Program-made: the position numbers and the translations under genes | The notes under the pieces: model-generated | What the model saw: the letters and a program-made list of their open reading frames with translations, nothing else | Databases searched by the model: none | What the model was told of the DNA's origin: nothing | DNA from: Chromobacterium sp. IIBBL 290-4 | Lineage (GTDB): Bacteria > Pseudomonadota > Gammaproteobacteria > Burkholderiales > Chromobacteriaceae | NCBI RefSeq assembly: GCF_024207115.1 | Contig: NZ_CP100128.1 | Coordinates: forward strand, 2,170,001-2,234,000 | Reading direction: 5' to 3' | Length of the DNA: 64,000 nt | Part shown: piece after piece, positions 1-64,000 of the stretch | How positions within the stretch are numbered: position 1 is the stretch's first letter | Layout: each line of letters starts with the position of its first letter

Positions 1-254
1 AACGTACCAATGCCGACGGTCGTGCGTTCGATGAGGGCGAACAACGGCAGATTCTGGAATACGCGGTCGAGCGCTACTACGAAACAGGCGCTTTATTCGG
101 CTCCGTGAGCGACGGTCGGCGTGTGGTCGATCATGCCTTAGACGTGGGGGTGAACGAAATCGCTTGCCTGATGGATTTCGGTGTCGATTACGCCACCGTT
201 TTGCAGTCACTTCCTTATCTGAAAAAACTTGTTTACTTCTATAAGCCGGAATAA
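1..254 (+). CDS. mupA: MupA-like luciferase-family monooxygenase, C-terminal fragment
   Basis: The window opens inside a reading frame (codons from position 3) that gives about 83 residues and ends at TAA 252-254. The tail reads ACLMDFGVD, then VLQSLPYLKKL. This is the typical C-terminus of the flavin-dependent luciferase-like monooxygenases found in PKS/NRPS clusters. In the mupirocin pathway MupA uses reduced FMN to hydroxylate the nascent chain (the C6 hydroxyl) while it sits on the synthase. The gene lies five bases upstream of the mmpA start, as expected for mupA. The catalytic part is outside the window, so the family call rests on the C-terminal signature and gene order. The start is not visible. 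Confidence 0.75.
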   Translation, partial: RTNADGRAFDEGEQRQILEYAVERYYETGALFGSVSDGRRVVDHALDVGVNEIACLMDFGVDYATVLQSLPYLKKLVYFYKPE

Positions 255-259
255 ATGTC

Positions 260-3200
260 GTGGATACAGATCGCAAGAGAACACGCATAGACGCTAAACT
301 GAAGGCCCTCGCCACTGCACAGGTGCCGCGCAAGGCGGAATCCGCGACGCCAGAGCCCATCGCCATTGTCGGCATCGCCGGATTTTTCCCGCAGTGTGCC
401 TCCGTCGCCGAATTCTGGAACGCGATCGATCAGGATCGTTCGTTGTTGGAAGAAGTTCCCATCGACCGTTTCGATGTCGACGAGGTGTTCTGCCCGGGCG
501 AGATCCGGGAAGGGAAGACACGTAGCAAGTGGGGCGGCTTTATTCCCAATATCCGGCAATTCGATGCGAGTTATTTCGGTATTCTGCCAGACGAAGCCGA
601 ACGGATGGATCCGCGCCAGCGTCTTCTGCTGATGGCAGTTCGCCAGGCTCTGGTGGACGCAGGCTATCGTCCAGACGCCTTGCGAGGAACGAAAACCGGC
701 GTGTTCGTTGGGGCGGAGCACAATGAATACGCGCAGTGCATGGCAGATGCGGACGTGGATGTCGGTACTGGATTACACCAGTCCGATAGCATGCTGGCCA
801 ACGGACTGTCTTATTTCTTCGATTTGCGTGGACCGAGCGAATCGGTCAATGCGATGTGCGCTGGCGGCGCCGTCGCCTTGCATCGCGCTGTGGTCGCTAT
901 GCGTGCGGGGGAAATTGACCAGGCCGTTGTAGGCGCAGCCAACCTAATCTTGAAGCCAGACATTGCGATTAAGCTGTCGCAAAGCGGGCAGATGAGTCCG
1001 ATTGGCACCGTCAAATCCTTCGGTGCTGATGCCGACGGCTTTTTGTGCGGCGAAGGCGTGTGCGCCATGTTGCTCAAGCCCTTGGGCCGGGCCCAAGCGG
1101 ACGGTGACGCTATTCATGCATTGATTCGCCATACCGCCGTTAATTACAACGGCCAAGGTAGCTCCTCGATCGCGGCACCCAGTGTCGCGGTCCATTCTCA
1201 GCTTATCCAAACCTGTTACCGTCAGGCTGGCGTGGATCCACGCGACGTCCGCTATATCGAGGCGCAGGGGATGGGAAATCCAGCCTCGGATATCGCCGAG
1301 TGGGATGCGTTCAATCATGCGTTGAAGACCTTGGCGGACGAAAAGGGGGCGAAGCTCCCCGAGGGCAATTGTTATGTAAGCACGCTCAAGCCCTTGTCCG
1401 GGCACTTGCATGCTGCATCCGCGCTAGCAGCCATCTGCAAAGTCGTTCGCAGCTTTCGTACCGGCATGATTCAAGGTGTGCTCGGTTTCGACACCATCAA
1501 TCCGCACCTTACGCTCGGTGGGATGCCCTGCCGCATCGCCGAGCAGAGTGATGCCTGGCCGAGTGGACGGGAACGTATCGCGGGCGTTCACTCCTTCGGG
1601 GCGGGTGGCAATAATGCGCACATCCTGATCGAGGCGTACCACGAGCCGGCCGAAGAGCAATCCGAGCAAACAGGGGACATGATTCTGCCGGTTTCGGCGC
1701 CCACGCCACAGCTGCTGGAACAAGCGGTTTTCGCGCTACGCGCCAAAGTGGCCGCCCATGCCGAGTACCCTCTTTGGCGTATCGCACTGACGCTTAGTCA
1801 TGGGCGCGAAACGTTTGCCTCCCGCGTCGTGTTTGTTGCCGCGAGCCGTGAAGAGTGGCTGAGCCAGAGTGAGGCTTTCCTCAAGGGAGAAGCATGCAGC
1901 GGTGTGTGGCTCCAAGACGCCACTACGGAAAACAATGATGTGCGGCTGTCCGAACAAGGTATGGCGTTGCGCTGGCTTGTCGGTGAGGAGGTGGCCTGGC
2001 CGGCTCCAGAACAGCATGGTCCCTGGCGAGTGCACTTACCGGCTGCGCCGCTCGATACTCAGCCGTACTGGTTTTCGTCGTGCTCGTCACGCACGCGCGA
2101 TGATGCGTCAATCTCGGTCTCCGACCTGGGGGCACGCACATGGGCCGAACAGGTGGTACGTACCGCGCTCGGCGCTTTGTTGCGCCGTCCGGGGCAGGAG
2201 CTCGATCTGAATGCCGAATTGAGCGAAATGGGGTTCGATTCGCTGATGGTGCGCCACCTTTGCCGCCGCATGCGCGACGATCACGGCGTGGAAATCGAGC
2301 CAGCATTGCTGTTCGAGCTGACGCGTCCGGTGAGGCTGGTCGAATGGCTGGCAAACCGCGGCCATCCGTCCCGCGCGTCGTCGCCTAAGCGAGCACCGCG
2401 CCCGATGCGTCCATGCCTGATCAAAGGGGGGCGAGAGCCGATCGCCATTATAGGGTTGGCCGGCGTCTATCCGAAGGCTGCGAATGTCGATAAGCTTTGG
2501 CGCAATCTAGTGGCCGGCCTTGATTGCATCGACGAGCTGCCCACGGAGCGCTGGGCGACGTCCCATTTCTTTGAGCCGGATCCAGCCCGGGCTGTGGAGC
2601 GTGGACTCAGTTACGGCAAGTGGGGTGGTTTCCTTGAAGACTTGCACGCCTTCGATCCGTTGTTTTTCTATCTTTCCCATGCCGAAGCGCAGTACATGCA
2701 TCCCAAAGAGCGATTATTCATGCAGTGTGCCTGGCATGCCTTGGAAGACGCGGGCTATCCCCCGGGCGCCCTTGCCACCGAGAAGGTCGGCGTTTTTGTC
2801 GGCGTTTCGAAAGCAGGGTATGACAATTACCGCGATTCTTTCTTCTCGGTCGCCAACCGGGTGTCCTACCGCTTCAACTTCACCGGCCCGAGCATGCCGG
2901 TCGATACAGCTTGCTCTTCCTCGCTTTCCGCTATCCATGAAGCCTGCTTGCACCTGCAGTCAGGGGAGTGCGATTTGGCTCTGGCTGGAGGTGTCAACGC
3001 CTATACGCACCCATCCACGTTCGCCGAATTTTCACGCTTAGGTGTTATGTCGCCGGATGGCAAGTCACGCGCCTTTGGTGACGGCGCAAATGGCTTCGTG
3101 CCGGGTGAGGGAGTGGGCGCGGTGTTGCTTAAGCCGCTCGAGCGAGCCTTGGAGGATGGCGACCATATCCATGGGGTGATTCTCGGTAGCGCGATCAACC

Positions 3201-6200
3201 ACGGCGGCAAAACCAACGGCTATACCGTACCCAATCCGGAAGCGCACAGGCTCCTGATTCGTCAAGCGCTGACGCGCTCCGGTATAAGCGCGAGCGCCAT
3301 CGGTTATGTTGAGGCCCACGGTACAGGTACCGCGTTGGGCGACCCGATCGAATTGCGTGGACTGACCGAAGCCTTTCTGGAGGACGGCGTCGAAGTGGGA
3401 GCTTGCCGCTTGGGCTCGGTCAAGACCAATATCGGCCATTTGGAAGCGGCGGCAGGGATCGCCGGTTTGACGAAAATCCTGTTACAGATGCGCCATCGGC
3501 AGTTCGTGCCGTCGTTGCACTCGAGTACCCTGAACCCGGACATCGTCTGGCATGCCTCGCCTTTCCGCGTGCAACAGCGGGTGGAGGCGTGGGATGCGTT
3601 ACCCGCCGATCACTCGCACTCGCCGCGGATCGCTGGACTGTCATCGTTTGGCGCAGGTGGCAGCAATGCCCATCTCATCGTGCAAGAAGCGCCCGACGAC
3701 ACCCGGCCGAAGTCGCCGGACCAAGGCCGGCGACTATTCGTCCTGTCGGCGCGCAATGAAGCGGCGTTGCGCCGCTATGTTGACTCCTTGCTCAACTTCA
3801 TCGAAAGCGGCGTACCGGTTTCGCTAACCGATCTCACTTACACGCTGCAAATCGGTCGCGAAGCTATGCAGTGGCGGCTGGCGTGCGTAGCCGAATCGCT
3901 CGAGGCGCTTGCTTCGGACTTGCGCGGCTTCATATCGGGTGCGCCTGGACATGGAGTTCAGGTGGGCAAAATCAAACGGGTCGAACAGCGGCTCGGTGCC
4001 TTTAGCGTCGACGAAGACGCTCATCGATTGGCGCGTCAATGGTTCGATCAAGGCAAGCTCCACTATCTCGCTAAGTTGTGGCTCGACGGCGAGGAGTTGG
4101 ATTGGCGTGCCCTATACCAGGGCGGTGACGCGCGCCGTATCAGCTTGCCGGGCTATCCTTTCGACAAGGAAGTGATCCCGCCCGCGCCGATGGTATCGCC
4201 CATTGGTGTCGGAGAGGTGCGGGACCTGACCCTGACGAGCACAGGCACTTTGACCGATGGCGGAGGCCTTGGAACCTTGCTGGTGAAGCCGCGCTGGCAG
4301 CCCGCCGCACTGCGCCGAGGCGGTTGGCGTGGTCCGGTGCGCGTTGTGTGCTGTGAATTGCGAGGGGCGGATGAGGTGCCCGGTTGGCTCAAGCTGCCGG
4401 GTGAGGAGCGAGGTATTGCTGAACGTTTTAAAGCGCACTCTATAAGCATAAGCGAAACCTTGCGGCATATCATCAAGGATGGCGCGCGCACCAGCACCCT
4501 GGTGCAGCTGTTGATTCCTTCACGACACCGCTGGCTTTGCGGTCTGTCCGGCTTGCTTAAGACCGCGAGCCTGGAGAGTAGCCGCATCCAGGCGCAATTG
4601 ATCGAAGTTCCAGAGGGCATGGCGGGTGCTGAGTTGGCCGACGTCGCCACGCGCGCGGCCCAACTCGACGAGACTTGGTTGCGTCACGATGGCAGCGGCT
4701 TCAGCGCTCTGCGCTGGGACGATATCCGCTTGCTCGGCACGTCGAACCTGCCGCCGTGGAAGGACGATGGCGTGTACTTGCTGACTGGAGGCTTGGGCGG
4801 TCTGGCCCGGTTGTTCGCTGAGGACATCGCTCAACATGCTCGTCGGGTCACGCTAGTGTTGGTGGGACGTTCGCCTCTGAGTGAACGGCACGCCCAATGG
4901 CTGAAAGTGCTGAATGCATCCGGTGTTTGTGCGATATATCAGCAAGCCGATATTGCCAATGCCGCCGAAGCCGAGTGCTTGGTTGCGGATATCGAATCAC
5001 TGAAGGGGGCGTTGACCGGTGTGCTGCATTGTGCGGGTGTGCAGCGCGATGCCTTCATTATCAATTCACGGCCAGAGGACTGGCATTCCGTCATGGCACC
5101 GAAGACGGAGGGAATAGTCAATCTAGACCGCGCCACACGCCATTGCCGGCTCGACTGTTTTATCGTGTTCTCTTCCGCCTCGGCCGCGGTCGGGCATCCT
5201 GGCCAGGCTGGCTATGCCGCGGCCAACGGATTCATGGACGGATTCGTCGAAGAGCGGCAAGCCCTGGTAGCGGCGGGAGAACGCCATGGGAGGACCGTGG
5301 CGATCGATTGGGGACTGTGGCGTGACGGAGGCATGCAGGTAAGTGCAGAAGTTGAACGGATGTTGCAGGATGGATCGGGCATGATTCCGCTTAGCCGGGA
5401 GTCGGGCCTCTGCGCCTGCTATGACGCGTTGGCCTCCGGAGATTGCCGAGTCCTGGTGATCGAGGGCGACGTCGCACGATTGCGGCGCACGCTGTCCGGA
5501 ACGGCTACGGGCAAACTGGCATCTCCGGCGCGAGGAGAGATGCGACAGGTCCTGTGGTCTGCCCTTTCCGAGGTACTGGGTATCTCGCCAGACAACATCG
5601 ATGAGCAGGCAGACTTCGAATCGGTCGGGCTTGATCAGCCGGCATTCAATCGGATGCTGAGCGAGCTTGGCCTGCATTATGCGCTCGAGCTCTCGCCACT
5701 TCTTTATCGCGAATGCCGCACCATTGCGGAACTCGAACACCACATGGCCGCTCGCCTGGGGTATATGGATGGCACTACGGCGCCGGGTGTGGAAAAGGGC
5801 AATGCGAGCGAGCGAGCCGCCGAGTATCTGAAAAACCTGCTCTCGAGCGTGATTCAACTTCCGGAACATCGGATCGACGCAGATGAGCCGTTCGAACGCT
5901 ACGGCATCGACTCGTTGATGGTGATGAAAATGACCGCCAAGTTGGAGGAGACTTTCGGGTGTTTGCCTAAAACCTTGTTCTACGAATACCAAAACATCCG
6001 CGAGCTAAGCCACTATTTCGCCGAAAAACATGGAAATATCCTGGCTGAGCAGACCCGCGTGCCGGAGTGCGCCTTGCCGTCAGCCAGCGTAGCATCTGCT
6101 GAGCCGACGCGGCAGGGCGCGGCTTTGCCCGACGAGGCCGGGGGGGGGATATCGCGATCATCGGCTTGGCCGGACGCTATCCCGGTGCTGAAAACCTTGG

Positions 6201-6220
6201 TGACTTCTGGCGGGTGCTGA
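260..6220 (+). CDS. mmpA: MmpA trans-AT polyketide synthase, first part (KS0-ACP; KS-KR-ACP-ACP)
   Basis: 1986-residue frame with a GTG start at 260 (GGA at 248-250 as a weak Shine-Dalgarno). Domains: KS0 (about 32-455) with Cys200, but the first catalytic His is Gln336 (AQGMGN instead of AHGTGT), so it should transfer rather than condense. ACP with GFDS at Ser661. Full KS (about 726-1148) with Cys885, AHGTGT and NIGH. KR (about 1503-1690) with GGLGGL, Ser and Tyr. A degenerate ACP with GLDQ (Gln1793). An active ACP, GIDS, Ser1885. There is no AT; malonyl units would come from MmpC. The last about 27 residues are out-of-frame read-through after the G9 run at 6140-6148. The real protein continues with the KS-ACPx4 part downstream. 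Expected role: late extensions of the monic acid chain after MmpD. Confidence 0.9.
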   Translation: MDTDRKRTRIDAKLKALATAQVPRKAESATPEPIAIVGIAGFFPQCASVAEFWNAIDQDRSLLEEVPIDRFDVDEVFCPGEIREGKTRSKWGGFIPNIRQFDASYFGILPDEAERMDPRQRLLLMAVRQALVDAGYRPDALRGTKTGVFVGAEHNEYAQCMADADVDVGTGLHQSDSMLANGLSYFFDLRGPSESVNAMCAGGAVALHRAVVAMRAGEIDQAVVGAANLILKPDIAIKLSQSGQMSPIGTVKSFGADADGFLCGEGVCAMLLKPLGRAQADGDAIHALIRHTAVNYNGQGSSSIAAPSVAVHSQLIQTCYRQAGVDPRDVRYIEAQGMGNPASDIAEWDAFNHALKTLADEKGAKLPEGNCYVSTLKPLSGHLHAASALAAICKVVRSFRTGMIQGVLGFDTINPHLTLGGMPCRIAEQSDAWPSGRERIAGVHSFGAGGNNAHILIEAYHEPAEEQSEQTGDMILPVSAPTPQLLEQAVFALRAKVAAHAEYPLWRIALTLSHGRETFASRVVFVAASREEWLSQSEAFLKGEACSGVWLQDATTENNDVRLSEQGMALRWLVGEEVAWPAPEQHGPWRVHLPAAPLDTQPYWFSSCSSRTRDDASISVSDLGARTWAEQVVRTALGALLRRPGQELDLNAELSEMGFDSLMVRHLCRRMRDDHGVEIEPALLFELTRPVRLVEWLANRGHPSRASSPKRAPRPMRPCLIKGGREPIAIIGLAGVYPKAANVDKLWRNLVAGLDCIDELPTERWATSHFFEPDPARAVERGLSYGKWGGFLEDLHAFDPLFFYLSHAEAQYMHPKERLFMQCAWHALEDAGYPPGALATEKVGVFVGVSKAGYDNYRDSFFSVANRVSYRFNFTGPSMPVDTACSSSLSAIHEACLHLQSGECDLALAGGVNAYTHPSTFAEFSRLGVMSPDGKSRAFGDGANGFVPGEGVGAVLLKPLERALEDGDHIHGVILGSAINHGGKTNGYTVPNPEAHRLLIRQALTRSGISASAIGYVEAHGTGTALGDPIELRGLTEAFLEDGVEVGACRLGSVKTNIGHLEAAAGIAGLTKILLQMRHRQFVPSLHSSTLNPDIVWHASPFRVQQRVEAWDALPADHSHSPRIAGLSSFGAGGSNAHLIVQEAPDDTRPKSPDQGRRLFVLSARNEAALRRYVDSLLNFIESGVPVSLTDLTYTLQIGREAMQWRLACVAESLEALASDLRGFISGAPGHGVQVGKIKRVEQRLGAFSVDEDAHRLARQWFDQGKLHYLAKLWLDGEELDWRALYQGGDARRISLPGYPFDKEVIPPAPMVSPIGVGEVRDLTLTSTGTLTDGGGLGTLLVKPRWQPAALRRGGWRGPVRVVCCELRGADEVPGWLKLPGEERGIAERFKAHSISISETLRHIIKDGARTSTLVQLLIPSRHRWLCGLSGLLKTASLESSRIQAQLIEVPEGMAGAELADVATRAAQLDETWLRHDGSGFSALRWDDIRLLGTSNLPPWKDDGVYLLTGGLGGLARLFAEDIAQHARRVTLVLVGRSPLSERHAQWLKVLNASGVCAIYQQADIANAAEAECLVADIESLKGALTGVLHCAGVQRDAFIINSRPEDWHSVMAPKTEGIVNLDRATRHCRLDCFIVFSSASAAVGHPGQAGYAAANGFMDGFVEERQALVAAGERHGRTVAIDWGLWRDGGMQVSAEVERMLQDGSGMIPLSRESGLCACYDALASGDCRVLVIEGDVARLRRTLSGTATGKLASPARGEMRQVLWSALSEVLGISPDNIDEQADFESVGLDQPAFNRMLSELGLHYALELSPLLYRECRTIAELEHHMAARLGYMDGTTAPGVEKGNASERAAEYLKNLLSSVIQLPEHRIDADEPFERYGIDSLMVMKMTAKLEETFGCLPKTLFYEYQNIRELSHYFAEKHGNILAEQTRVPECALPSASVASAEPTRQGAALPDEAGGGISRSSAWPDAIPVLKTLVTSGGC
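6140..6148 (+). other. mmpA: G9 homopolymer that breaks the mmpA frame
   Basis: Nine consecutive G. Upstream the mmpA frame reads DEAGGG and then leaves frame at ISRSS, ending at 6220. In the next frame the bases right after the run read GDIAIIGLAGRYPG, the standard beginning of a KS domain. One extra G (G10) or two fewer (G7) joins the two frames exactly. The KS start is encoded upstream of any usable start codon of the second frame, so this is one gene, interrupted by a sequencing or assembly indel or by a real, possibly phase-variable, frameshift. Confidence 0.85.
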
Positions 6221-9200
6221 ACGAAGGGTGCGATTGCATCACTGAGATTCCCGCCGAGCGTTGGGATCACGCTCACTATTTCGATCCAGACCGCAACGCT
6301 GCAGGCAAGACCTATACGAAGTGGGGGGGCTTTATCGAGGGCGTTGACTGCTTCGATGCCGCCTTCTTCAATATCTCGCCGCGCGAGGCCGCCATTATGG
6401 AACCGCAAGAGCGACTCTTCCTGCAAACGGCTTATGAGGCGATCGAAGACGCGGGCTATACGAGGCAAAGTTTGGCGAGCAACGCGACTATCCATGGTGT
6501 CGCCGGCAGCGTCGGTGTTTTCGTCGGGGTAACTTATGAGGAGTACCAACTGTATGCGGCGGAAGCCACGGCACGGGGGGAGCCGATGGTACTGTCGATG
6601 AGCCCGTCCTCCATCGCCAACCGGGTATCCTACTTCTGCAATTTTCACGGGCCAAGCATGGCAGTTGACGCAATGTGCGCTTCGTCGTTGACTACCGTGC
6701 ATCTGGCCTGCCAGAGCCTAAAAAACGGTGAATGCCGGGTCGCGTTGGCGGGAGGAGTCAACGTCTCCATCCACCCGGCCAAGTATCTGATGCTCGGCAA
6801 GGGCAAATTCGCATCCAGCAAAGGACGCTGCGAAAGCTTCGGCGCGGGCGGCGACGGCTATGTCCCGAGTGAGGGCGTGGGTGCGGTGCTACTCAAGCCG
6901 CTTGGCGCAGCGCTGGCCGACAAAGATCGGATTTACGGCGTGATCCGAGGCAGCGCGATCAATCACGGTGGCAAGACCAACGGCTATGCCGTGCCCAATC
7001 CGAACGCGCAGGCCGACGTGGTAGCGCGTGCCATAGCCAATGCCGCCGTCGACGCCCGGCAGATCAGTTATGTTGAAGCGCACGGAACCGGCACTGTGCT
7101 GGGTGATCCGATTGAGATCGCAGGCATCAGCAAGGCCTATCGCGCGCATACGCAAGACAGTGGCTTCTGCGCCATCGGTTCGGTGAAGTCGAACATCGGG
7201 CACTGCGAGAGTGCGGCGGGTATCGCAGGCCTGACCAAGGTGCTATTGCAGATGAAGTACCGCAAGTTGGTACCGTCGCTGCATGCTCACACCTTGAATG
7301 CCAACATCAATTTCGACTCGACGCCTTTTAAGGTGCAGCAGACATTGACAGAGTGGGCTCCGCGCTCGACCTCGGGCGAGTCCTTGCCGCTCATCGCGGG
7401 CGTCTCTTCATTCGGCGCCGGAGGCACGAACGCACACTTGATAGTTGCCGAGTGGCCGCAGACCCGCGCCGTGTCCATCGACTCGCCGCGCGAACCCGTC
7501 GCCATTGTGCTGTCTGCCAAGAATGCCGAAGCTCTTCGAGTCCAGGCTGAACGCATGGCTGCCTGGATTCGTGCTCATGAAGCGGAGGGTTTCGATGTGC
7601 GCGCAATGGCGTATACCTTGCAAGTTGGACGCGAAGCGATGGATCACCGGCTGGCATTTCTGGCGGAAAATGTTGCACAGGTAATGGCATCGATCGATGC
7701 CTTCCTGCATGGTGGCGCGGCAACAACAGGACTCCGGTTTGGCCAAGCGCGGGAAGGCCAGCCGACGCCAACGGCTGCCGCTCGCTCATCACTTGAACAA
7801 TCGGCATGGAGCCGTGATCTGCCGACGCTACTGCGTCATTGGGTGGACGGGGGCGAAGTACCCTGGTCTTTGCTGTATGACGGCGAGCCGCCGGCGCGTC
7901 TCAGCTTACCGACCTATCCGTTCTCTCGCCAGCGCTACTGGCTGCCCAAACGCACAGTCTCGGCAGGACTGGGCGTGACCTTGTGCCAAGATGGCACGGC
8001 TACTGCGCCCGGCAAGATCAAGTTGCGTCCGCTGCATACCTTGGCGGACACCCCGGCTGCGCCTAGTCGTCAGGCCGCCGCAAGCTCGGTGCCGACGGGC
8101 GGGATGGCATCCAAGGATGAGGCTGTGGCTCCTATGCCGCAGTTGGATGTGGAATCGATGCTCACAGCGTGGTTGGCCGACGTGCTGTATATGAGCGCCG
8201 GCGATATATCGCAGGACAAGCCCTTCATCGACTTGGGCCTGGATTCGGTGGTGGGCGCGGAATGGATACGTTCGGTCAACAAGCATCTAGGGTTGGCCCT
8301 CCCCTCCAGCGTGGCCTATGAGCATTCAACTATCAAGCGTTTGGCGAGACATGTGCAAAGTCTGATGGCTGGTCAAGCTCCCTCTGCAGCCGTGGCCAAG
8401 ACGGCGCCTGCCGTCATGTCCGCAGTCCATCCACGAGAAAGTGACCGGAGCGGAACGCTCAGTCGACTGGAGCAAATGTTGAGCGCGTCCCTGGCCGACG
8501 TTCTGTATATGAGTGCAGGCGATATTCCGCAGGACAAGCCGTTTATCGACTTGGGTCTGGATTCGGTAGTGGGCGCGGAATGGATGCGAACGGTTAACAA
8601 GAACTTGGGTTTGGCACTGCCCGCCAGTGTGGTTTACGAACAAGCCACGATCCGGCAGCTGGCACGCTATCTGCACGGCCAAGGTGCAGGCAACGTGCCT
8701 GTCGGCGCATCCGCGGCTGATGCGGTTCCGGTCGCCGCGCCTGCAGCATTGGTCGACGAAAGCACGCGGAGCGAAACGCTCAGTCGACTGGAACGGATGT
8801 TGAGTGCCTCCTTGGCCGACGTTCTGTATATGAGTGCAGGCGATATTCCGCAGGACAAGTCGTTTATCGACTTGGGTCTGGATTCGGTAGTGGGCGCGGA
8901 ATGGATGCGAACGGTTAACAAGAGCTTGGGTTTGGCACTGCCCGCCAGTGTGGTTTACGAACAAGCCACGATCCGGCAGCTGGCACGCTATCTGCACGGC
9001 CAAGGTGCAGGCAACGTGCCTGTCGGCGCATCCGCGGCTGATGCGGTTCCGGTCGCCGCGCCTGCAGCATTGGTCGACGAAAGCACGCGGAGCGAAACGC
9101 TCAGTCGACTGGAGCAAATGTTGAGCGCATCCCTGGCCGACGTTCTGTATATGAGTGCAGGCGATATTCCGCAGGACAAGCCGTTTATCGACTTGGGTCT

Positions 9201-10427: not shown

Positions 10428-10447
10428 TGCCGCCTGGCTCCAGCCTT

Positions 10448-10467
10448 GGCGCCACCGCAATGGCGCC
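10448..10467. other. Inverted repeat between mupB and mmpB
   Basis: GGCGCCA, a 6-base loop CCGCAA, then TGGCGCC forms a perfect 7-bp GC-rich stem starting 20 bases after the mupB stop. No T run follows, so it is not a classical terminator; it could stabilise the transcript end of mupB or be chance. The rest of the 141-bp gap (10428-10568) shows nothing I can name. Confidence 0.3.
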
Positions 10468-10568
10468 GAGGCCAGCCGACCTATTACCGCTCACAGGTTT
10501 GGTGCTGGACGATTTCTTGTAGATTTAGGTGCGATGAATCATTGCCTACCTTGATTTCGGAATCTTCC

Positions 10569-40308: not shown

Positions 40309-40310
40309 GC

Positions 40311-42706: not shown

Positions 42707-42719
42707 ATACGGTTATCCC

Positions 42720-44052: not shown

Positions 44053-44065
44053 CCGGAATGGTCAG
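44049..44065. terminator. Small hairpin shared by the convergent ends of macpB and mupF
   Basis: CTGACC, loop GGAAT, GGTCAG gives a 6-bp stem that contains both stop codons (TGA 44050-44052 and, on the minus strand, 44064-44062). Lying exactly between convergent genes, it could work as a weak bidirectional terminator. There is no T tract, so the call is tentative. Confidence 0.35.
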
Positions 44066-48754: not shown

Positions 48755-48805
48755 CTTCAATCCGACGCGGCTTTGACGGTGCGTCATGGTGAAAGATGGA
48801 TCAGA

Positions 48806-49552: not shown

Positions 49553-49569
49553 GAGGAAGAAAAACCGTG

Positions 49570-54113: not shown

Positions 54114-54214
54114 TGTGATGCAATGCCCAATTTGGATATGTGTGGAATTTTACGTATGCTTATGAGATTCAGGATATTGTATGGTTACAGTATTTATCTA
54201 TAGGTAAGAAATCG

Positions 54215-57200: not shown

Positions 57201-57313
57201 TGGCGGTCAATATTCACCGTAGTCATATGGAGGATCCGCTGGTGAGTAACCAACTAGAGCTGGTCGATGGCGAGGATGTCATGATCCAGCTGCGGCGGGT
57301 GGCATGCAGTTGA
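54215..57313 (+). CDS. mupM: MupM, isoleucyl-tRNA synthetase 2 (mupirocin self-resistance)
   Basis: 1032 residues from ATG 54215 (AGG of TAGGTAAG about nine bases upstream); the frame extends to 54140, but that part is AT-rich and unlike the family. It is a class I synthetase with HIGH as HYGH (55-58, PHYGHIL) and KMSKS as KMSKR (590-594), WTTTPWTLPSN of the editing domain, and ESWFVRVSAFRDQL. Length and motifs match the eukaryotic-type IleRS2 group, which is little affected by mupirocin; MupM of P. fluorescens belongs to it. It attaches Ile to tRNA-Ile in the cytosol and should protect the producer. A housekeeping type-1 IleRS is probably elsewhere in the genome. It carries its own promoter-like region. 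Confidence 0.96.
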   Translation: MSKEVSSSVNFPKMEEAVQARWEREKTFERSISQREGKPVYVFYDGPPFATGLPHYGHILTSYIKDVIPRYRTMRGHQVPRRWGWDCHGLPVEFEVEKALGFKSKREILDYGVGNFNQACQNLVLKYADEWRAFVNRMGRWVDFDGAYKTMDNDYMESVLWGFKTLHDRGHVYEGSKIVPYCARCQTVLSNFEARLDDAFRPKRDMSAYVKFPVIGADKTYFVAWTTTPWTLPSNVALAVSAEMTYVCVEHGGERLWMSEESIPRVLDDDFGIIERCSGMELSGRRFLPVIGHAYDPEGHPVLTAGFVVPGDGSGIVHIAPAYGEEDASLAAKHGLAAPNPVRDDGTFSEAVAAYAGQNIFDASPRILSDLEQAGTLLKQTLIEHNYPHCWRCDNPLIYRAVESWFVRVSAFRDQLVENNAQINWIPEHVKEGRFGDWLRNARDWAVSRNRFWGAPIPVWRCDCCNSVEVLGSIAEIEARSGRKVHDLHVPHIDEHRFACKSCNGTMSRVSGVFDCWFESGSMPFASRHYPFENKQEFEQAFPSDFIVEYLAQTRGWFYTLVAISTGCFDSHPFKNAMCHGVILAKDGRKMSKRLKNYPNPMDLMDTHGSDALRVALLASPVCRGEDIKFNEESVRDVVRRYHLLFWNCMHFYRTFAEIDGFKPQGCLDKAGDDVLDHYLLHELASMQAQIEEWMEEIDFAKIYARIELFINVLSTWYLRLNKPRIWREGFDDDKRQCYEVLHYALSTFAKLIAPFMPFLAEAVYAELGYEESVHLQHWPEALTEYVSPSLAEEMGSLRSLVGCVRNIRETHAISQRIPLQSIRVAGVGQSVLERYAKFLQEELNVKQVHWEADGSEWTEASVVLRYPLLGKRLGGKMKEVAATVRAGEYVETEHGTLLVAGEEIQADEFERRLLVRPGRSGVGIFENAVVWLDLTITPELRHEGAARELNRRLQDLRKKATLGYSERVEVAVIGGGACTDQILESHESWLKGQLLAVNIHRSHMEDPLVSNQLELVDGEDVMIQLRRVACS

Positions 57314-57362: not shown

Positions 57363-58214
57363 ATGAATGCTGCCCTGGCTTTGCCCGAAAATCACATCCA
57401 CCTTTGGTTGTGCCTGGACGCATCGATCAACGATCCTGACTGCCTGGAATGCTGCGAGCGCATGCTGGACAAACCCGAGCAAGCGAGGCGGTGGCGTTTT
57501 CATTTTCCCAAGCATCGTCATCAGTTTTTACTGACCCGGGCATTGGTGCGTTGCGTCCTGTCTTGCTATACGGATGTGCGGCCAGAGGAGTGGACGTTCA
57601 TTCAGGACGCCTACGGCAAACCGGCGATTGCTGGACCCGAGCAAGATCAACCGCTGCATTTCAACGTTTCCCATACCGACGGACTGATTGTCGTGGCGGT
57701 GGCGCGCCAAGGCACGGTTGGCGTCGATGTGGAGAACCTGCGACGAGAGGGATCAACTTTCGAACTCGCTAACAGCTTTTTTGCTGTTCCAGAGCGCGAA
57801 TGGCTGCGCGCTTTGCCATCGGCTGACAAGCCCAGGCGTTTTTTCGAGCTGTGGACGCTGAAGGAGGCCTACGTCAAGGCGCGGGGGCAGGGCTTGTCCA
57901 TTGCCTTGGATTCATTCCATTTCAGGCTTGACGCAGACGGCGGCGACATCCTTTTCGACGCGGCGGATAGCGACCCGTGCCGTTGGCATTTCTGGTCGTG
58001 GTCCTTATTCGGCGATTATCGGTTGGCGCTCGCGGCGATGAGTGACAAGGCAAACGTGTTCCAGGTTGAGGTTGCTGGAGCGGTGCCGGCCCTTGCCGGT
58101 GACGCCGCTGGACGTGCGTTGGGCGGCGTGCTGCCCGCTACTTCTTTTCCTATTTTTTCACCGTCAGACATGGCTTTGCTGGGCGCATCCAGGCTGCGCG
58201 CCTATCAAGAGTGA
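57363..58214 (+). CDS. mupN: MupN, Sfp-type phosphopantetheinyl transferase
   Basis: 283 residues from ATG 57363. Sfp/Sfp-like signature: FNVSHTDGLIVVAV, GVDVENLRR near residue 120 for Mg2+ binding, and WTLKEAYVKARGQG starting at Trp164. It should transfer 4'-phosphopantetheine from CoA onto the many ACPs of MmpA, MmpB, MmpD and MmpE and the free ACPs. About 50 residues after the usual end (from about 235) form a Ala/Leu-rich tail with no recognised motif. It follows mupM by 49 bases. Confidence 0.93.
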   Translation: MNAALALPENHIHLWLCLDASINDPDCLECCERMLDKPEQARRWRFHFPKHRHQFLLTRALVRCVLSCYTDVRPEEWTFIQDAYGKPAIAGPEQDQPLHFNVSHTDGLIVVAVARQGTVGVDVENLRREGSTFELANSFFAVPEREWLRALPSADKPRRFFELWTLKEAYVKARGQGLSIALDSFHFRLDADGGDILFDAADSDPCRWHFWSWSLFGDYRLALAAMSDKANVFQVEVAGAVPALAGDAAGRALGGVLPATSFPIFSPSDMALLGASRLRAYQE

Positions 58215-58275
58215 TAGGTTGAAGGGCAAGCGAATTCAGCTATGCTCATCGCGCATTGTCTGATGGAGAACATGA

Positions 58276-59643
58276 ATGTCGTCATGTCCGGGACATGTTA
58301 CGCTCGAACCCGAGCGTCTCCCCCCACCGGTGGTTAAGGGCTGGCCGTTGTTGGGCTCGGCATTTCCTTTGTTGCGCGATCCGCTTGGATTTCTACGCCG
58401 TGCTCACGAAGAGCATGGCGACATTTTCATGGTCAAGGCGCCCGGGATGAGCCTCGTTGTGCTTGCCGGAATGGAGGCCAACCGTTTCATTGCCGAGCGG
58501 GGACGGGAGTGCCTGAGTTCCGCCAAGTTCTGGCAAGGAACACTGGATGAGATGGACTGCCCGCATTCTTTTATTGGTGTCGATGGGGAGGTTCATCGCT
58601 TCCAGCGCGCGCTGATGAAGCCCTTGTTCGCACGCACGGCCTTCAACGAGCGTATCTCCAAATTGGCCGAGATTTTCATGAGCGAAATCCGCGAGGGCTT
58701 CGGCAAGCGCCAGCTCGTGTCGCCGCTATTTCGCTACGTGGTATCGCGGCAGATCGGCGGTTCTTTGCAGGGGTACTTGCCAAGCGCGGAAGAAGTCGAG
58801 GCACTGATGCACTATCAAACGACGGCAATGAATGTCTGTTCGTTGAAGAAGTGGCCTCGCTTCATGTTGAAGTTGCCGAAATACCGGCGCGCCAAACGCA
58901 AAGTACAAGAGTTGGCTGACCGCATCATTCGCCAGGCCGATCACAACGGCGATTCCACCGGTTATTTTCAGACGCTGCGCGAAAAGGGGCAGAAGGTCAA
59001 ACCCGAGTGGTTTACTCCGGGCGATCTGCGCAACCACGCAGTAATCTCTTTTCTGGCCGGCATCGATACTGTCGGCGCGACGCTCAGCTTTGCCCTGCTC
59101 GAATTGTTCAAGCAGCCCGAGATGGTCCGCCTGCTGCGAGCGGAGGTCGATGAAGTGTTCCAACGTGGCCTGCCCGACGCCGATGCCCTGGAGCGAATGG
59201 AAAAAGTCAACAATTTTGTGCGGGAAATCCTGCGTGTCTATCCAGCGGCCTTCGCGCTCAGACGCACTGCCACGCGCAATTTCGATTTCCAGGGTTATAC
59301 CGTCGGGTGTGGACAGGACATCATCTTGTTCATTACCGCGAACCATACCAATGCAGCTTGGTTTAAGGAGCCGGATCGATTTGACATCGCACGTTACGAG
59401 GCACCGCATTGCGAACATCGGGTAGGTGGTGCCTGGGCTCCCTTCGGTCGTGGTCCACACACCTGCATCGGCGCTGGGCTGGCCAATATATTGCTGACGC
59501 TGAATCTGTCACTGTTCCTGTTTCACACTGAAATCATTCCCGACTGCGACTTGAGCAAGGTGTCGATGGACTACTCCAACCCGACAGCTGGATTGAGCAA
59601 GGGGTTTGCGATCAAATTTACTCCGCGGCGCGCCTCCTCATGA
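58276..59643 (+). CDS. mupO: MupO, cytochrome P450
   Basis: 455 residues from ATG 58276 with GGAGAA six bases upstream; ATG 58272 is in another frame. Full P450 motifs: I-helix FLAGIDTVGATLSF, EILR of the ExxR motif, and the heme loop PFGRGPHTCIG with Cys397 as the iron ligand. There is no transmembrane anchor at the N-terminus, so it is a soluble bacterial P450 that needs a separate ferredoxin (mupT lies outside the window). In mupirocin MupO takes part in the late conversion of PA-B to PA-A. Its stop overlaps mupP (ATGA). Confidence 0.94.
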   Translation: MSSCPGHVTLEPERLPPPVVKGWPLLGSAFPLLRDPLGFLRRAHEEHGDIFMVKAPGMSLVVLAGMEANRFIAERGRECLSSAKFWQGTLDEMDCPHSFIGVDGEVHRFQRALMKPLFARTAFNERISKLAEIFMSEIREGFGKRQLVSPLFRYVVSRQIGGSLQGYLPSAEEVEALMHYQTTAMNVCSLKKWPRFMLKLPKYRRAKRKVQELADRIIRQADHNGDSTGYFQTLREKGQKVKPEWFTPGDLRNHAVISFLAGIDTVGATLSFALLELFKQPEMVRLLRAEVDEVFQRGLPDADALERMEKVNNFVREILRVYPAAFALRRTATRNFDFQGYTVGCGQDIILFITANHTNAAWFKEPDRFDIARYEAPHCEHRVGGAWAPFGRGPHTCIGAGLANILLTLNLSLFLFHTEIIPDCDLSKVSMDYSNPTAGLSKGFAIKFTPRRASS

Positions 59644-60596
59644 GGCAGAGACAACCCTCGCTTTGCCAGATCGCAATCGTGACAGTCGACGCGGTGCGCA
59701 GCAGGCGTTTTTATTGCGCACTGCTCGATTTGCGGCCAACTGGCGAGTTTCCCGTTGTAGGGTCGCGTGCCGCGAGCTTGTTCGAGCTGCCGCACATTCG
59801 CGCAACCAATCACTGGTTGGCCGGATCGAGGCAGTTTTTCCAGATCGAATTATTTGAATTCGAGGAACCGGAACCGAGCGCTACTAACCCTGGACAAGGG
59901 TACAACTGCATTGTCGTTGAGGTGGCTGACGCCGAATCGACCATATGCTCACTCGCAAGCCAGGGTCTGCTAGCGGCCGAAGGAACGTGGTTGTGTCCAT
60001 GCACGGGACATGCCTTGTTACGAGATCCAGACGGCGTGTTGATCGAATTGATAGGAGGAGGCAGGCAACGGAGCACGAGTGGCAGGGTGGTTGGTGTCAG
60101 GGCCGAAGCCTCGGAGCCTCAGGATGCGCGCCGCTATTTCGTAGAGGCATTGGGTATGCGCCCGGATGGTCCCGAGTCCATGCGGCTGTATGCCGGCGAA
60201 TACTGGCTCGAATTGTCACCGCGTGCCGCCGACTCGGCTCACTGTTCACAGCCGCCTGCGCTGGCGCGTCCTGGAATAATGAACATCGCTTTGGGCATGC
60301 GTCAGCCGGCTGACTTTTGGGCGGTCTACCGTCGAGTGCTGAAGCACGGTTACCGCTCAGCGACGGAGCCGATCGGCAACGGCATTTCCCACGTAGTCTA
60401 TGTCCGGACCGAGCATGGCTTGTCGGTCGAACTGCTGCAATTACCGGCGTTTCTAGACGCAGTGTGGGGATTCGCCCGCCCAGGCTTGTGCGCACGCCTG
60501 GCTCAATGGGCGATTCGCGCGCTTGCGCGCAGCAACGCTGTGTGCGCTCGACCAGCAAATTTCGAGAGCATGCGGAAGGAAAAGGTATGGATGTAA
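59640..60596 (+). CDS. mupP: MupP, two-domain VOC-fold (glyoxalase/dioxygenase-like) protein
   Basis: 318 residues, ATG 59640 overlapping the mupO stop. The N-terminal half shows a VOC pattern: LCQIAIVTVDAVRSRRFYCALLD-like opening (IAIVTVD, SRRFY), then NCIVVEVADAEST and LLRDPDGVLIELIG. The second half repeats it: ARRYFVEALGM, PGIMNIALGM, and HVVYVRTEHGLSVELLQLP. Glu in LIELIG and VELLQ are at usual metal-ligand positions, but clear His ligands are not obvious. It may bind metal and act as an isomerase or dioxygenase, or have lost catalysis and bind a product. I recall no settled function for MupP in mupirocin. The last codons overlap mupQ. Confidence 0.75.
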   Translation: MRQRQPSLCQIAIVTVDAVRSRRFYCALLDLRPTGEFPVVGSRAASLFELPHIRATNHWLAGSRQFFQIELFEFEEPEPSATNPGQGYNCIVVEVADAESTICSLASQGLLAAEGTWLCPCTGHALLRDPDGVLIELIGGGRQRSTSGRVVGVRAEASEPQDARRYFVEALGMRPDGPESMRLYAGEYWLELSPRAADSAHCSQPPALARPGIMNIALGMRQPADFWAVYRRVLKHGYRSATEPIGNGISHVVYVRTEHGLSVELLQLPAFLDAVWGFARPGLCARLAQWAIRALARSNAVCARPANFESMRKEKVWM

Positions 60597-61942
60597 AACG
60601 TCAATGGTTGGTGCCGCGCTTACGCTCGTTTAACTCGCGTATGGCGTTGATTGCTGACTGCCGCCACGACACCTACGAGGATATCGCGACGGCGCTGGAA
60701 CAGTGGCTGACACTACTCGATGCTCAAAAAGTCATGCAGGCCACGGTGGTGGTCAACGGCGATTATTCCTGTGTGGTGATCGGCGCGATACTGGCGCTGT
60801 ATTTGCGTGGCTGCGTGGTGGTGCCGCTCTATCTCGCAGACCAGGCAAAGATTGATGAAGTCGCTACGCTGACTCGGGCAAGATATGTGATCGGGGAGGT
60901 GAATGCCTTCGATTGCCGCTCCATCGAGATGGATGGCTCCGTGCCGCCCTTGATCGAGCGGTTGTTCGCGGCTAATGAGTCCGGGTTGATTTTGCTCAGT
61001 TCCGGGAGCACTGGCGTCCCAAAGGCGATGTTGCTCAGTCTCGACCGGCTGTTCGCCCGCTATGTCGACCAAGATGAATTCTCCCCGATGATCACTGCGG
61101 CCTTTTTGCTGTTCGATCATGTCGGCGGGTTCAATACCTTGATCTATTCGTTGTTTAACGGCGGCACACTGGTCAAGCTCAATTCGCGTGATCCAGGGCA
61201 CGTCTGCGCCCATATCGAGCGCCACAAGATCGAGCTGCTGCCTGCGACCCCCACTTTCCTGAACATGCTACTGATCGGCGGTCGTGACCGCGAATACGAC
61301 CTTGGCAGTCTCAAATTGATCACCTATGGCACCGAGAGCATGCCGCAATCCACGCTGGATAACGCGGTCAAGGCCTTTCCGGGGGTTCGTTTGAAGCAGA
61401 CCTATGGCATGAGCGAACTCGGCATCTTAGCCACCCGCTCCGAAGCTAACGATTCGCTGTGGATGAAAATAGGTGGTGACGGCGTCGGCACGCGCGTCGT
61501 CGACAACGTGCTTTGGGTGAAAACCAAAACCGCCATGCTCGGTTATCTCAATGCCGCGTCGCCGATCGACGAAGATGGTTGGTTGTGCACCGGCGACGTG
61601 GTCGAAGTGCGTGAGGAATATTTCAAGGTTTTGGGCCGCGAGGGCGACATGATCAACGTGGGCGGCCTGAAAGTGGTGCCGGCCGAGGTTGAAAGTCATT
61701 TGCTGTGCCTTCCGTTCGTCAAGGACGTCGTGGTGTGGGGCAAGCATAGTCCGGTGACCGGCAAGATTGTGGCTGCCACGGTGCTGACCACTGAGCCGAT
61801 GGACGTTTCTGAGGCGAAGAGGCAAATCGTTCTGCACTGTCGTGAGCGGCTGGAGCCATTCAAGGTGCCGAAATTCATTGAATTCGCCGAAGGGCAGTTG
61901 CATAGCGAACGATTCAAAAAAGTGAAGGTGAGACCCCAATGA
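60587..61942 (+). CDS. mupQ: MupQ, acyl-CoA/acyl-ACP synthetase (ANL family)
   Basis: 451 residues from ATG 60587, with GGAAGGA upstream and a 10-base overlap with mupP. The upstream open frame is a mupP shadow. AMP-forming motifs: LSSGSTGVPKAMLLS, TYGMSELG, WLCTGDVVE, and GREGDMINVGG; the C-terminal catalytic Lys is likely in SERFKKVK. It is a short member of the family. It would activate a carboxylic acid through an adenylate onto CoA or, more likely here, an ACP. In mupirocin MupQ, MupS, MacpD and MmpF are thought to make the 3-hydroxypropionate starter for 9-hydroxynonanoate. It overlaps mupS (ATGA). Confidence 0.88.
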   Translation: MDVKRQWLVPRLRSFNSRMALIADCRHDTYEDIATALEQWLTLLDAQKVMQATVVVNGDYSCVVIGAILALYLRGCVVVPLYLADQAKIDEVATLTRARYVIGEVNAFDCRSIEMDGSVPPLIERLFAANESGLILLSSGSTGVPKAMLLSLDRLFARYVDQDEFSPMITAAFLLFDHVGGFNTLIYSLFNGGTLVKLNSRDPGHVCAHIERHKIELLPATPTFLNMLLIGGRDREYDLGSLKLITYGTESMPQSTLDNAVKAFPGVRLKQTYGMSELGILATRSEANDSLWMKIGGDGVGTRVVDNVLWVKTKTAMLGYLNAASPIDEDGWLCTGDVVEVREEYFKVLGREGDMINVGGLKVVPAEVESHLLCLPFVKDVVVWGKHSPVTGKIVAATVLTTEPMDVSEAKRQIVLHCRERLEPFKVPKFIEFAEGQLHSERFKKVKVRPQ

Positions 61943-62691
61943 ACACGGAAGCTTTGGCGTCCTACTCTGACCAGGACAAGGGCGTGATCATAGTGAGCGG
62001 CGGCAGCCAAGGGCTGGGTTGCGCTATTGTTGAGCGTCTTTTGCAATCCGGGTATCGCGTGGCAACGTTCAGCCGCCGTTGTACGGCAACCGTCGAGCGA
62101 TTGGTGGATCTCCGCGGTTTTTTTTGGCAATCGGTCGATTGCACCAACTATGCCTCGCTTAAGCGTTTTATCGACGAAACCGAGCAACGGCTGGGCCGAC
62201 TGTCCGGCTTGGTGAACAATGCTGCGATGGGCGTAGACGGCATTTTGGCAACGATGCCGCTCTCCGACATCGATCGGGCCCTCGATATCAATCTTAAGGG
62301 ACAGATTTATCTGACCAAGCTGGCCGCGGGCAAGATGCTGAAGGGGCGAGATGGCGCTATCGTCAACATTTCATCGATCAATGCGGTTCGAGGCCACTCG
62401 GGGCTCGCGGTTTATAGCGCGACCAAGGCGGCGCTCGACGGCATGACCCGCAGCCTGGCTAAGGAGCTGGGCCCGAAAGGTATTCGCGTCAATTCGGTGT
62501 CGCCGGGCTATTTCGCCAGCGACATGGTCAAGACGCTCAGTGAAGACACTCTGCGACGCATTCAGCGTCGGACGCCGCTTGGCCGCCTGGGCACACAAAA
62601 AGAAATTGCCGAGCTGGTGCTGTTTCTGATCAGAGATGGTTCGTTTATTACTGGACAGAACATAACGATCGATGGGGGATTCACATGCTAG
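61939..62691 (+). CDS. mupS: MupS, FabG-like ketoreductase (SDR)
   Basis: 250 residues, ATG 61939 overlapping mupQ. Classical SDR: SGGSQGLGCAI for NADPH, VNNAAMGVDG, Ser in VNISSINAVRGHSG, YSATKAALDG, and the end FITGQNITIDGGF. It should reduce a beta-keto or aldehyde group on a MacpD-bound unit. Its start, the macpD overlap at its end and the MmpF start downstream make a tight four-gene block, mupQ-mupS-macpD-mmpF, which fits a shared task in starter formation. Confidence 0.9.
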   Translation: MNTEALASYSDQDKGVIIVSGGSQGLGCAIVERLLQSGYRVATFSRRCTATVERLVDLRGFFWQSVDCTNYASLKRFIDETEQRLGRLSGLVNNAAMGVDGILATMPLSDIDRALDINLKGQIYLTKLAAGKMLKGRDGAIVNISSINAVRGHSGLAVYSATKAALDGMTRSLAKELGPKGIRVNSVSPGYFASDMVKTLSEDTLRRIQRRTPLGRLGTQKEIAELVLFLIRDGSFITGQNITIDGGFTC

Positions 62692-63008
62692 GAAGTTTTA
62701 ATTCCAATGATATTTGGGCTGTCGTCGAACGGGAACTGACCACTATCCTGAGAAACAACGGCAGCACCCCGAACGAACTGGAGCCGGATACTCGGCTTGG
62801 CGAGATCGGTATCAGCTCGCTCGACTTGGCAGAGCTTATTAGCAATCTCGAAGACGCCTTCGGCGTTGATCCCTTCGCAGCCAAGGTGCCGATCACCAGC
62901 ATTGTGACGATTGACCAGTTGTGCGCCGCTTATGCTTCATTGCTCGACAGCACCACCGCGCCTGGTGACATGCTGGACGCCGAGTTGCGGGCGTTGCGCG
63001 CGCAATGA
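62685..63008 (+). CDS. macpD: MacpD, free-standing acyl carrier protein
   Basis: 107 residues from ATG 62685, overlapping the mupS stop by seven bases. The motif is EIGISSLDLAELISNLED, with the phosphopantetheine Ser after Ser/Ile where most ACPs have Asp. It is followed by a typical ACP recognition helix and the third-helix region VTIDQLCAAY. It likely carries the C3 starter or malonyl unit for MmpF. The C-terminal about 20 residues are a charged tail. Confidence 0.88.
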   Translation: MLGSFNSNDIWAVVERELTTILRNNGSTPNELEPDTRLGEIGISSLDLAELISNLEDAFGVDPFAAKVPITSIVTIDQLCAAYASLLDSTTAPGDMLDAELRALRAQ

Positions 63009-63023
63009 GGTGGGGAGTGTGCA

Positions 63024-64000
63024 ATGCATGACGCAGACCTAGCGATTGTTGGCATGGCGTGCCGTTTTCCAGGCGCGCGTAACAAGGATGAATTTTGGCG
63101 CAATTTGTGTGCCGGTGAGGAGTCGATCCGTACGTTGGACGATGCTACCTTGACGGCTTCGGGCGTGACGCAAGAACAGTTGCAAAGTGCCACCTATGTC
63201 AAGCGCAGTCCTGTACTCGACGACATCGACGCCTTTGATGCCCGTTTTTTTGGCATAAGCGGGCAGGAAGCGGCCCTGTTGGATCCCCAGCACCGCCTGT
63301 TCTTGCAAGTGGGATATGAGGCGCTTGAAGATGCCGGTTACGTGCAAATGGCACAGCAAGGGCTAACGGGCGTGTATGCGTCCGCGGGCGGCGTCACCAC
63401 GAGCTACTTACATAACTTGGGGGCATCGTTGAATGGTGTGCCGCAAGGCACTGGAAGTTTGCTCCATCTCGGCAACGACAAAGATTTCCTGGCGACGCGC
63501 CTCTCCTTTAGACTGAATTTGACCGGACCTGGCTTGACGATTCAGACGGCGTGTTCGAGCGCCTTGGTGGCGCTGCATACGGCTTGCGGCGCCTTGCGTC
63601 TCGGCGAGATCGAGACGGCCCTAGTTGGCGCGAGTTGCGTGCGCGTGCCACATCTTGTCGGTTACGACAGCGCCGAAACCCCTCTGTTGTCTGCGGATGG
63701 ATACTGCCGGGCATTTTCGGACGAAGCATCCGGAACCGTATTCGGTAGTGGCGTGGCCGCCGTGATTGTGCGGCGGCTCGCGGACGCTTTGCGTGATCGG
63801 GATCATGTCTATGCAGTGATCAAGGCGACCTCGATTAACAACGATGGAGCAGCCAAGATCGGTTACACCGCTTCAAGTGTGCCCGGACAGGCACGCACAA
63901 TGGTGCGCGCCATGGCCAAGGCAGGGATAGACGCGGATCGGATTGGTTATGTCGAATGTCATGGCACGGCGACGCGGGTCGGTGATCCTTTGGAAATCAA
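63024..64000 (+). CDS. mmpF: MmpF, ketosynthase protein, 5' part (runs off the window)
   Basis: ATG 63024 (GGTGGGGAG upstream), open through the end of the window: at least 325 codons. It opens with a KS of the PKS type: LAIVGMACRFPGA, then FFGISGQEAALLDPQHRLFLQ, with the nucleophile in IQTACSSALVAL and the first His in ECHGTATRVGD. It should be a condensing enzyme. In mupirocin MmpF is a lone KS that works with MupQ, MupS and MacpD on the 9-hydroxynonanoate starter. The end is missing, so further domains cannot be judged. Confidence 0.9.
   Translation, partial: MHDADLAIVGMACRFPGARNKDEFWRNLCAGEESIRTLDDATLTASGVTQEQLQSATYVKRSPVLDDIDAFDARFFGISGQEAALLDPQHRLFLQVGYEALEDAGYVQMAQQGLTGVYASAGGVTTSYLHNLGASLNGVPQGTGSLLHLGNDKDFLATRLSFRLNLTGPGLTIQTACSSALVALHTACGALRLGEIETALVGASCVRVPHLVGYDSAETPLLSADGYCRAFSDEASGTVFGSGVAAVIVRRLADALRDRDHVYAVIKATSINNDGAAKIGYTASSVPGQARTMVRAMAKAGIDADRIGYVECHGTATRVGDPLEI

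Follow-up and report, generated by a model that had tools for sequence, protein, structure and literature searches.

Mupirocin-type (mup) clusters encode trans-acyltransferase (trans-AT) polyketide synthases (PKSs), and PMC9070926 (2022) names NCIMB 10586, BRG100, 2P24, 8B, NS383 and QS1027 as carriers. The same paper states full collinearity for all clusters seen, describes the known clusters as lacking features of a mobile segment, and calls their mobility intriguing. The NCIMB 10586 cluster is 74,417 bp long (PMC11837529); published descriptions start it with mupZ and mupA, and place mmpE 3′ of the hydroxymethylglutaryl synthase (HMGS) cassette and mmpF 3′ of macpD/mupQ/mupS. The thiomarinol-type counterpart is carried by pTML1 of Pseudoalteromonas (NC_015708.1). 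The DNA analysed here (64,000 nucleotides, the window) comprises positions 2170001-2234000 of the 5.117 Mb single-contig genome of Chromobacterium sp. IIBBL 290-4. Judged by its sequence, it holds a mup trans-AT PKS cluster distinct from the known Pseudomonas locus, with a near-complete gene set in which two genes appear interrupted in the assembly. That the cluster is of mup type, that its host is a Chromobacterium and that it lies on an inserted island is a joint reading to which we assign a probability of about 0.85; production of an antibiotic is outside this claim. The original prediction, made from the letters of the window alone, had spoken of few producers, and the list of carriers above is somewhat longer than that.

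Gene letters were assigned by what we take to be the NCIMB 10586 nomenclature. Thirty-six protein pieces encoded in the window or its flanking DNA (a set excluding macpB and macpC) were compared by tblastn with the QS1027 region (contig NZ_PHSU01000014.1). All except one matched at the corresponding place, order and orientation, with identities of 43-75% across all genes; values for the PKSs were 53 and 55% (MmpA), 48% (MmpB), 66% (MmpC), 51% (MmpD), 51% (MmpE) and 55% (MmpF). The sole non-match was an open reading frame (ORF) misassigned as mupI (12657-13178 of the downstream flanking stretch, L007). It was rejected: it is without a Pfam match, and the true mupI was located separately by its LuxI domain at L007 7074-7847. 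The cluster extends past both window ends, from mupZ to mupX (~77.9 kb, longer than in NCIMB 10586). The start of mupA and mupZ (18737-19111 of the upstream stretch, L006) precede the window, and the order downstream is the mmpF end, macpE, mupT, mupU, mupV, mupW, mupI, a gene-poor stretch, a LuxR gene and mupX. Between mupZ and mupX, QS1027 has the same genes in the same order, likewise with mupF on the minus strand, and its PKSs follow the same domain plan. Full collinearity fails through mupI, which lies 3′ of mupX in QS1027 and between mupW and the LuxR gene in Chromobacterium; this single displaced gene is not taken to exclude membership of the mup clusters.

The full MmpA-MmpF set is present, mmpA being split over two frames. 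The tetrahydropyran-ring genes mupW, mupT and mupZ were found (69, 43 and 73% to QS1027), as were the fatty-acid genes mupQ, mupS, macpD, mmpF and mmpB, all matching QS1027. Also present are mupO, mupP, mupU, mupV, mupC (frame-interrupted), mupF and macpE, given in PMC6367315 as the genes that convert pseudomonic acid B to pseudomonic acid A (PA-A). The gene order from mupA to mmpF had been predicted, along with mupM, the HMGS cassette and an AT-AT-ER mmpC. Two tblastn comparisons bore out the order, one with pTML1 proteins as queries on the window, the other with window proteins as queries on QS1027 DNA. MupM was recognised by TIGR00392, the HMGS cassette as macpC-mupG-mupH-mupJ-mupK, and MmpC by ncbifam FabD in two stretches (motifs GSSLG and GHSLG) plus PfaD.

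Comparison with NCIMB 10586 was made through the solved structures 6FXD and 2L22 only, which we take to be proteins of that strain. MupZ is identical to 6FXD at 76 of 116 positions, and two ACPs of MmpA are identical to 2L22, which is named as MmpA3a in the literature, at 58 of 170. A mupirocin structure was absent from the best 60 of 151 PDB rows for the last part of MmpA; 2L22 was found with an ACP-only query. The Chromobacterium and NCIMB 10586 clusters agree in the names and roles of their genes, in having three ACPs in MmpB, and in a KS0 with an ACP in MmpE (PMC7619045 and PMC10098928).

The protein search with MupM returned 7999 scored candidates (7655 passing an E-value of 1e-200), of which the best 120 were considered. 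Among the matches listed, the closest other MupM proteins were those of Pseudomonas sp. W15Feb34 (74%; 28 members) and NS383 (73%), followed by a JGI protein (60%). The MupM proteins of W15Feb34, NS383 and QS1027 are 83-89% identical among themselves, so the Chromobacterium cluster lies outside them. These values and those for MupZ and the ACPs agree with the earlier view of clear homologues that are not the reference sequence. The JGI isoleucyl-tRNA synthetase (IleRS; P0004, on a 7.6 kb contig) is 60% identical to the MupM of the window and of Pseudomonas alike, and could mark a further mup-type lineage.

The PKS core, the HMGS cassette and a MupW-type oxygenase are homologous to those of pTML1, which would fit a thiomarinol-type cluster. 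We consider this reading highly improbable. Identity to pTML1 is 28-69% by gene, mostly below the QS1027 values, and the tailoring genes are reordered. HolA, TmlU and a second TmpB module belong to pTML1; here HolA (only partial matches of 25-30% across the genome) and TmlU (only a 25% match, to mupU, in the 124 kb searched) were not found, the other hol genes lying outside the search. MmpB has one KS and no second TmpB module, and macpE and mupV are present. An MmpC tree was built from 15 rows (13 of 80 returned loci, pTML1 and the window). The window and QS1027 form a pair (100/99), a clade (100/100) unites the four thiomarinol-type rows, and all six group together (100/100), in a tree in which six rows including QS1027 failed the composition test and one outgroup row was 42% filled. 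A thiomarinol-type product was rejected on these searches, the MmpB domains and this tree, and the forecast of a further, divergent mup-type member holds. Thiomarinol-type clusters or parts of them were also seen in Alkalimonas collagenimarina, Vibrio sp. S9_S30 and Pseudoalteromonas luteoviolacea MMG009 (L021, L020 and L022). Their MmpC proteins group with that of pTML1, those of Vibrio and P. luteoviolacea being near identical (branch lengths 0.006 and 0.002).

The host belongs to Chromobacterium (Betaproteobacteria, Neisseriales): identity of the flanking ttcA is 95% with C. violaceum, 94% with C. phragmitis and 96% with an unnamed entry. Genomes of the genus (19) and family (61), this one included in both, were used for comparison. 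MupW was detected at E ≤ 1e-60 in one of the 61, this Chromobacterium alone. Among the matches listed, and with most subscription papers outside the search, no published mup-type cluster was found in Chromobacterium or any betaproteobacterium. The cluster occupies an island of ~81 kb (window coordinates -3460 to 77447) beside tRNA-Met. Two identical tRNA-Met genes are present, and the right flank begins at ~77446-77453 with the 3′ end of one of them. The distance from tRNA-Met to aidB is 80.9 kb here and 41 bp in the sibling G003. In 20 kb stretches from nine siblings, aidB was near the right flank in seven (41 bp in G003, 1.8 to 15.6 kb in the other six) and was not seen within those of G007 and G008. 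The differing spacing indicates a variable insertion site, likely an insertion hot spot in the genus. The far end of the island carries decayed fragments of a tyrosine integrase (29.9 bits for the arm-binding domain, cut-off 27; catalytic piece weak, E 0.005) and an IS4/5-type transposase split over two frames. GC content is 0.596 in the window and 0.62-0.67 in the outer flanks. An inserted island makes this a candidate route for the spread of mup clusters.

Several observations weigh against the joint reading. No direct attachment repeat was found (no exact match of at least 13 bp between 77300-77700 and -4000 to -1), and the integrase pieces lie at the end of the island opposite the tRNA; how the island entered can for these reasons only be inferred. 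The LuxR protein is 48% identical to one on the NS383 contig, 46% to the P. fluorescens group and 44% to QS1027, versus 48% to Chromobacterium sp. CV08. Being no closer to Pseudomonas than to Chromobacterium, it suggests that regulation may differ. The assembly shows interrupted frames for mmpA and mupC; a genuine switch in mmpA would leave the last MmpA module unmade, and monic acid would then not be expected.

The features are as follows, in window coordinates unless marked; unlabelled percentages are identities to QS1027.

1-254 (gene start at -852), +: mupA 3′ end, FMN-dependent monooxygenase; tblastn 67%, 59% to TmlA; stop codon 252-254
260-6220, +: mmpA first part, up to the frame switch, with two KS (the first non-elongating), one KR and three ACP stretches; 53%, 44% to TmpA; Pfam
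6140-6148, +: 9-G run, mmpA frame switch; sequence, hidden Markov model (HMM) and frame scores
6148-9501, +: mmpA last part in the other frame, KS and four tandem ACPs; 55%; Pfam; frame listing
8158-9315, +: the four tandem ACPs, ~321 bp period; ACP profile
9522-10427, +: mupB, KS III-like; 52%; Pfam ACP_syn_III weak
10446-16766, +: mmpB, KS-DH-KR-3 ACP-TE; 48%; Pfam
16812-20090, +: mmpC, AT-AT-ER; 66%, 52% to TmpC
20131-40308, +: mmpD, four-module PKS of 6725 aa; 51%; Pfam
24367-25498, +: methyltransferase repeat copy 1, mmpD module 1; 99.56% to copy 2 over 1132 bp
34681-35812, +: methyltransferase repeat copy 2, mmpD module 3; 99.56% to copy 1
40311-41575, +: mupC, NADH:flavin oxidoreductase family, in two frames; N part 73%, C part 60%; ncbifam
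40909-40918, +: 10-G run, mupC frame switch; sequence and frame scores
41644-41925, +: macpA; 66%; Pfam PP-binding
41957-42706, +: mupD, SDR reductase, start approximate; 56% from residue 44 of the longest ORF; ncbifam
42696-43751, +: mupE, zinc-type enoyl reductase; 73%; ncbifam
43801-44052, +: macpB, small ACP; GIDSL motif
44062-45081, −: mupF, NAD-dependent epimerase/reductase family; 56%, minus there too; Pfam
45269-45508, +: macpC, small ACP; 48% to TacpC
45444-46706, +: mupG, decarboxylating-type KS, start approximate; 62%; Ser replaces Cys
46722-47990, +: mupH, HMG synthase; 75%, 69% to TmlH
47987-48754, +: mupJ, crotonase; 59%
48773-49552, +: mupK, crotonase; 70%
49567-53214, +: mmpE, non-elongating KS, ACP and FAD oxidoreductase (epoxidase); 51%; Pfam FAD_binding_3
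53211-54065, +: mupL, alpha/beta hydrolase, start approximate; 60%
54140-57313, +: mupM, second IleRS; TIGR00392, 872 bits; HYGH motif
57363-58214, +: mupN, phosphopantetheinyl transferase; 52%; ncbifam
58276-59643, +: mupO, P450; 68%, 44% to the pTML1 P450
59640-60596, +: mupP; 48%
60593-61942, +: mupQ, acyl-CoA ligase; 62%
61939-62691, +: mupS, SDR reductase; 68%
62685-63008, +: macpD; 47%; Pfam
63024-64000 (gene end at 65285), +: mmpF 5′ part; 55%; ORF end
ending at L007 7106, downstream flank: mupW; 69%
L007 7074-7847, downstream flank, −: mupI, LuxI domain; Pfam
L007 10169-11047, downstream flank: LuxR gene; Pfam
L007 11081-12595, downstream flank: mupX

The mmpA frame switches at the run of nine G, between an ACP and the next KS, and that of mupC at the run of ten G; in QS1027 both frames are continuous, with no such G runs at these places. 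The 210 bp on each side were scored for all 28 runs of at least 8 G/C in the genome. The best frame was the same on both sides of 13 runs, shifted at 7 and changed strand at 8. A positive coding score with no stop on both sides was obtained at eight same-frame runs (two of them in the cluster, in mmpB and mupG) and at two shifts, those in mmpA and mupC. We lean towards an assembly error at both switches; if so, the strain could be capable of making a pseudomonic acid. Loss of mupC alone reduces PA-A in NCIMB 10586 and does not abolish it (PMC6367315).

A less probable account is that the cluster is decaying and silent, the two switches being mutations fixed after its arrival in Chromobacterium. 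The coding score is clear on both sides of both switches, three other runs of at least 9 G/C keep one frame (L122, L129 and L132, with only L132 scoring positive on both sides), short broken frames lie beside mupI, and the integrase is in pieces. The translations of the other compared genes, however, are without an internal stop, including that of the 20 kb mmpD (a stop flagged in mupA was terminal), and both switches coincide with the island's two longest G runs, the kind of site at which sequencing errors tend to occur. Slippage at the G runs, by phase variation or in the transcript, with only part of the population making the antibiotic, is improbable. Two of the genome's eight runs of at least 9 G/C lie in the 81 kb island versus 0.13 expected by length, both tracts are in genes of one pathway, QS1027 is without such runs there, and runs of at least 7 G/C number 10 in the 80.9 kb island versus 6 in a 400 kb genome sample. 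Yet 300 synonymous shuffles of 25 cluster gene pieces gave 4.25 runs of at least 7 (maximum 10), compared with 7 seen without the two tracts, and 0.09 runs of at least 9 (maximum 3), so that codon usage explains part of the excess; the test was also chosen after the tracts had been seen, and assembly error accounts for the same facts. The excess of short G runs was dropped as a sign of slippage, synonymous shuffling placing it within chance. More doubtful still is the specific version in which changes in tract length turn production on and off, so that only some Chromobacterium cells would pay for and release pseudomonic acid.

A natural division of mmpA into two genes was judged unlikely, the downstream frame having no ATG, GTG or TTG between the upstream stop and the KS. 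The HMM made 36 frame-switch calls in 20 sampled 20 kb stretches of the genome. None of the 36 contexts held a homopolymer of at least 6, and many of the calls look like overlapping gene starts. In 124 kb around the window the six calls were the two G runs, one near the mupV/mupW boundary, one in a broken stretch at ~72.9 kb and two past the island. Poor assembly throughout the genome was therefore set aside, homopolymer breaks not being widespread; the two tracts are not cleared by that. Runs of at least 6 on the plus strand of the island are biased to G (23, versus 2 of C), compared with 15 of G and 25 of C in the 400 kb sample; nearly all cluster genes are on that strand, and codon shuffles yield a similar number of G runs.

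ACP domains were counted with a home-made profile, possibly blind to weak ACPs (it overlooked the MmpE ACP of the window, visible in the alignment with its GLNSV motif retained). By this profile the last MmpA module ends in four tandem ACPs; its counterpart in QS1027 has two, and those of pTML1, Alkalimonas and P. luteoviolacea have three each. MmpB has three ACPs (two in QS1027, four in a row in the thiomarinol type), and module 3 of MmpD has two (one in QS1027, three in the thiomarinol type). NCIMB 10586 has two ACPs at the MmpA end (PMC7619045) and three in MmpB (PMC10098928); the earlier statement that ACP counts differ holds for MmpA, and the MmpB count is that of NCIMB 10586. DNA identity is 92-97.5% among copies 2-4 of the MmpA tandem ACPs and 74-76% between these and copy 1. 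Near-identity of three of the four points to recent growth of the ACP array in the HMGS module.

Across 11 aligned KS rows, the extending KSs retain Cys-His-His and the active sites match the expected pattern. EAHG is replaced by EAQG in the first MmpA KS and by ESST in the MmpE KS, both being without the first His, and MupG has Ser instead of Cys. Loss of the first His is expected of non-elongating KSs, and a Cys-to-Ser exchange of decarboxylating ones. The MmpE domain corresponds to a KS0 in NCIMB 10586 (PMC7619045).

The two methyltransferase stretches of mmpD lie 10.3 kb from each other and agree at 99.56% over 1132 bp, with all 5 differences in the last 17 bp; outside the repeat, ungapped identity drops to 24-46% per 100-bp step. 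The corresponding copies in QS1027 are 86% identical over 1099 bp, and those of the window are 68-70% identical to them. No comparable repeat was found in the three thiomarinol-type genes tested, tmpD included, where self-matches over 250 bp were only 66-68% identical. PMC9070926 reports such repeats in Pseudomonas mup clusters, lower in QS1027, and leaves the process unexplained. The window repeat would have arisen by intragenic gene conversion, and its sharp-edged identity of ~1.1 kb offers a clear case of that homogenisation.

MupM is an isoleucyl-tRNA synthetase, and its HYGH is the canonical HxGH motif. According to PMC10485003, hyper-resistance is tied to GxHH, and IleRS2 may bear either motif. 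A second ileS at 2866417 of the genome is presumably the housekeeping copy. A mupR/mupI-type pair is present and carries the Pfam domains LuxR and LuxI; identity of MupI is 46% with its QS1027 namesake and 25% with another LuxI-like stretch there. The LuxR gene may be MupR or a local replacement. Between it and mupI (L007 7900-9550) only short broken frames were seen, with no Pfam match at L007 8.1-9.5 kb (three pieces tried); this stretch looks like a decayed gene or transposon.

The cluster would have been acquired horizontally by a Chromobacterium. From work on NCIMB 10586 we infer the following scheme for each chemical step, for the product, for what MupM does and for how the cluster is regulated. 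MmpD and then MmpA would build the monic acid backbone, with MmpC providing the trans-acting ATs, and the HMGS cassette would add the beta-branch on the MmpA tandem ACPs. Epoxidation would be carried out by MmpE, and the tetrahydropyran closed by MupW, MupT and MupZ. MupQ, MupS and MacpD, MmpF and MmpB would make the hydroxy fatty acid, and the late genes would convert the B-type acid to the A-type. MupM would serve as a drug-tolerant second IleRS protecting the host, and the LuxR/LuxI pair would switch the cluster on. Production of a pseudomonic acid by the strain is plausible. The original prediction had valued the locus as a source of variant IleRS inhibitors; because two frames are interrupted, it is for now a possible source only. 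The host, the island, the frame switches at the G runs and the extension past both window ends were not part of that prediction. For comparative work, the locus contributes a second IleRS and a divergent set of enzymes.

In nine of the 18 other Chromobacterium genomes an MmpC-like match was obtained at E ≤ 1e-100, confined in eight of the nine to the ER half, so the genus may hold further trans-AT clusters.

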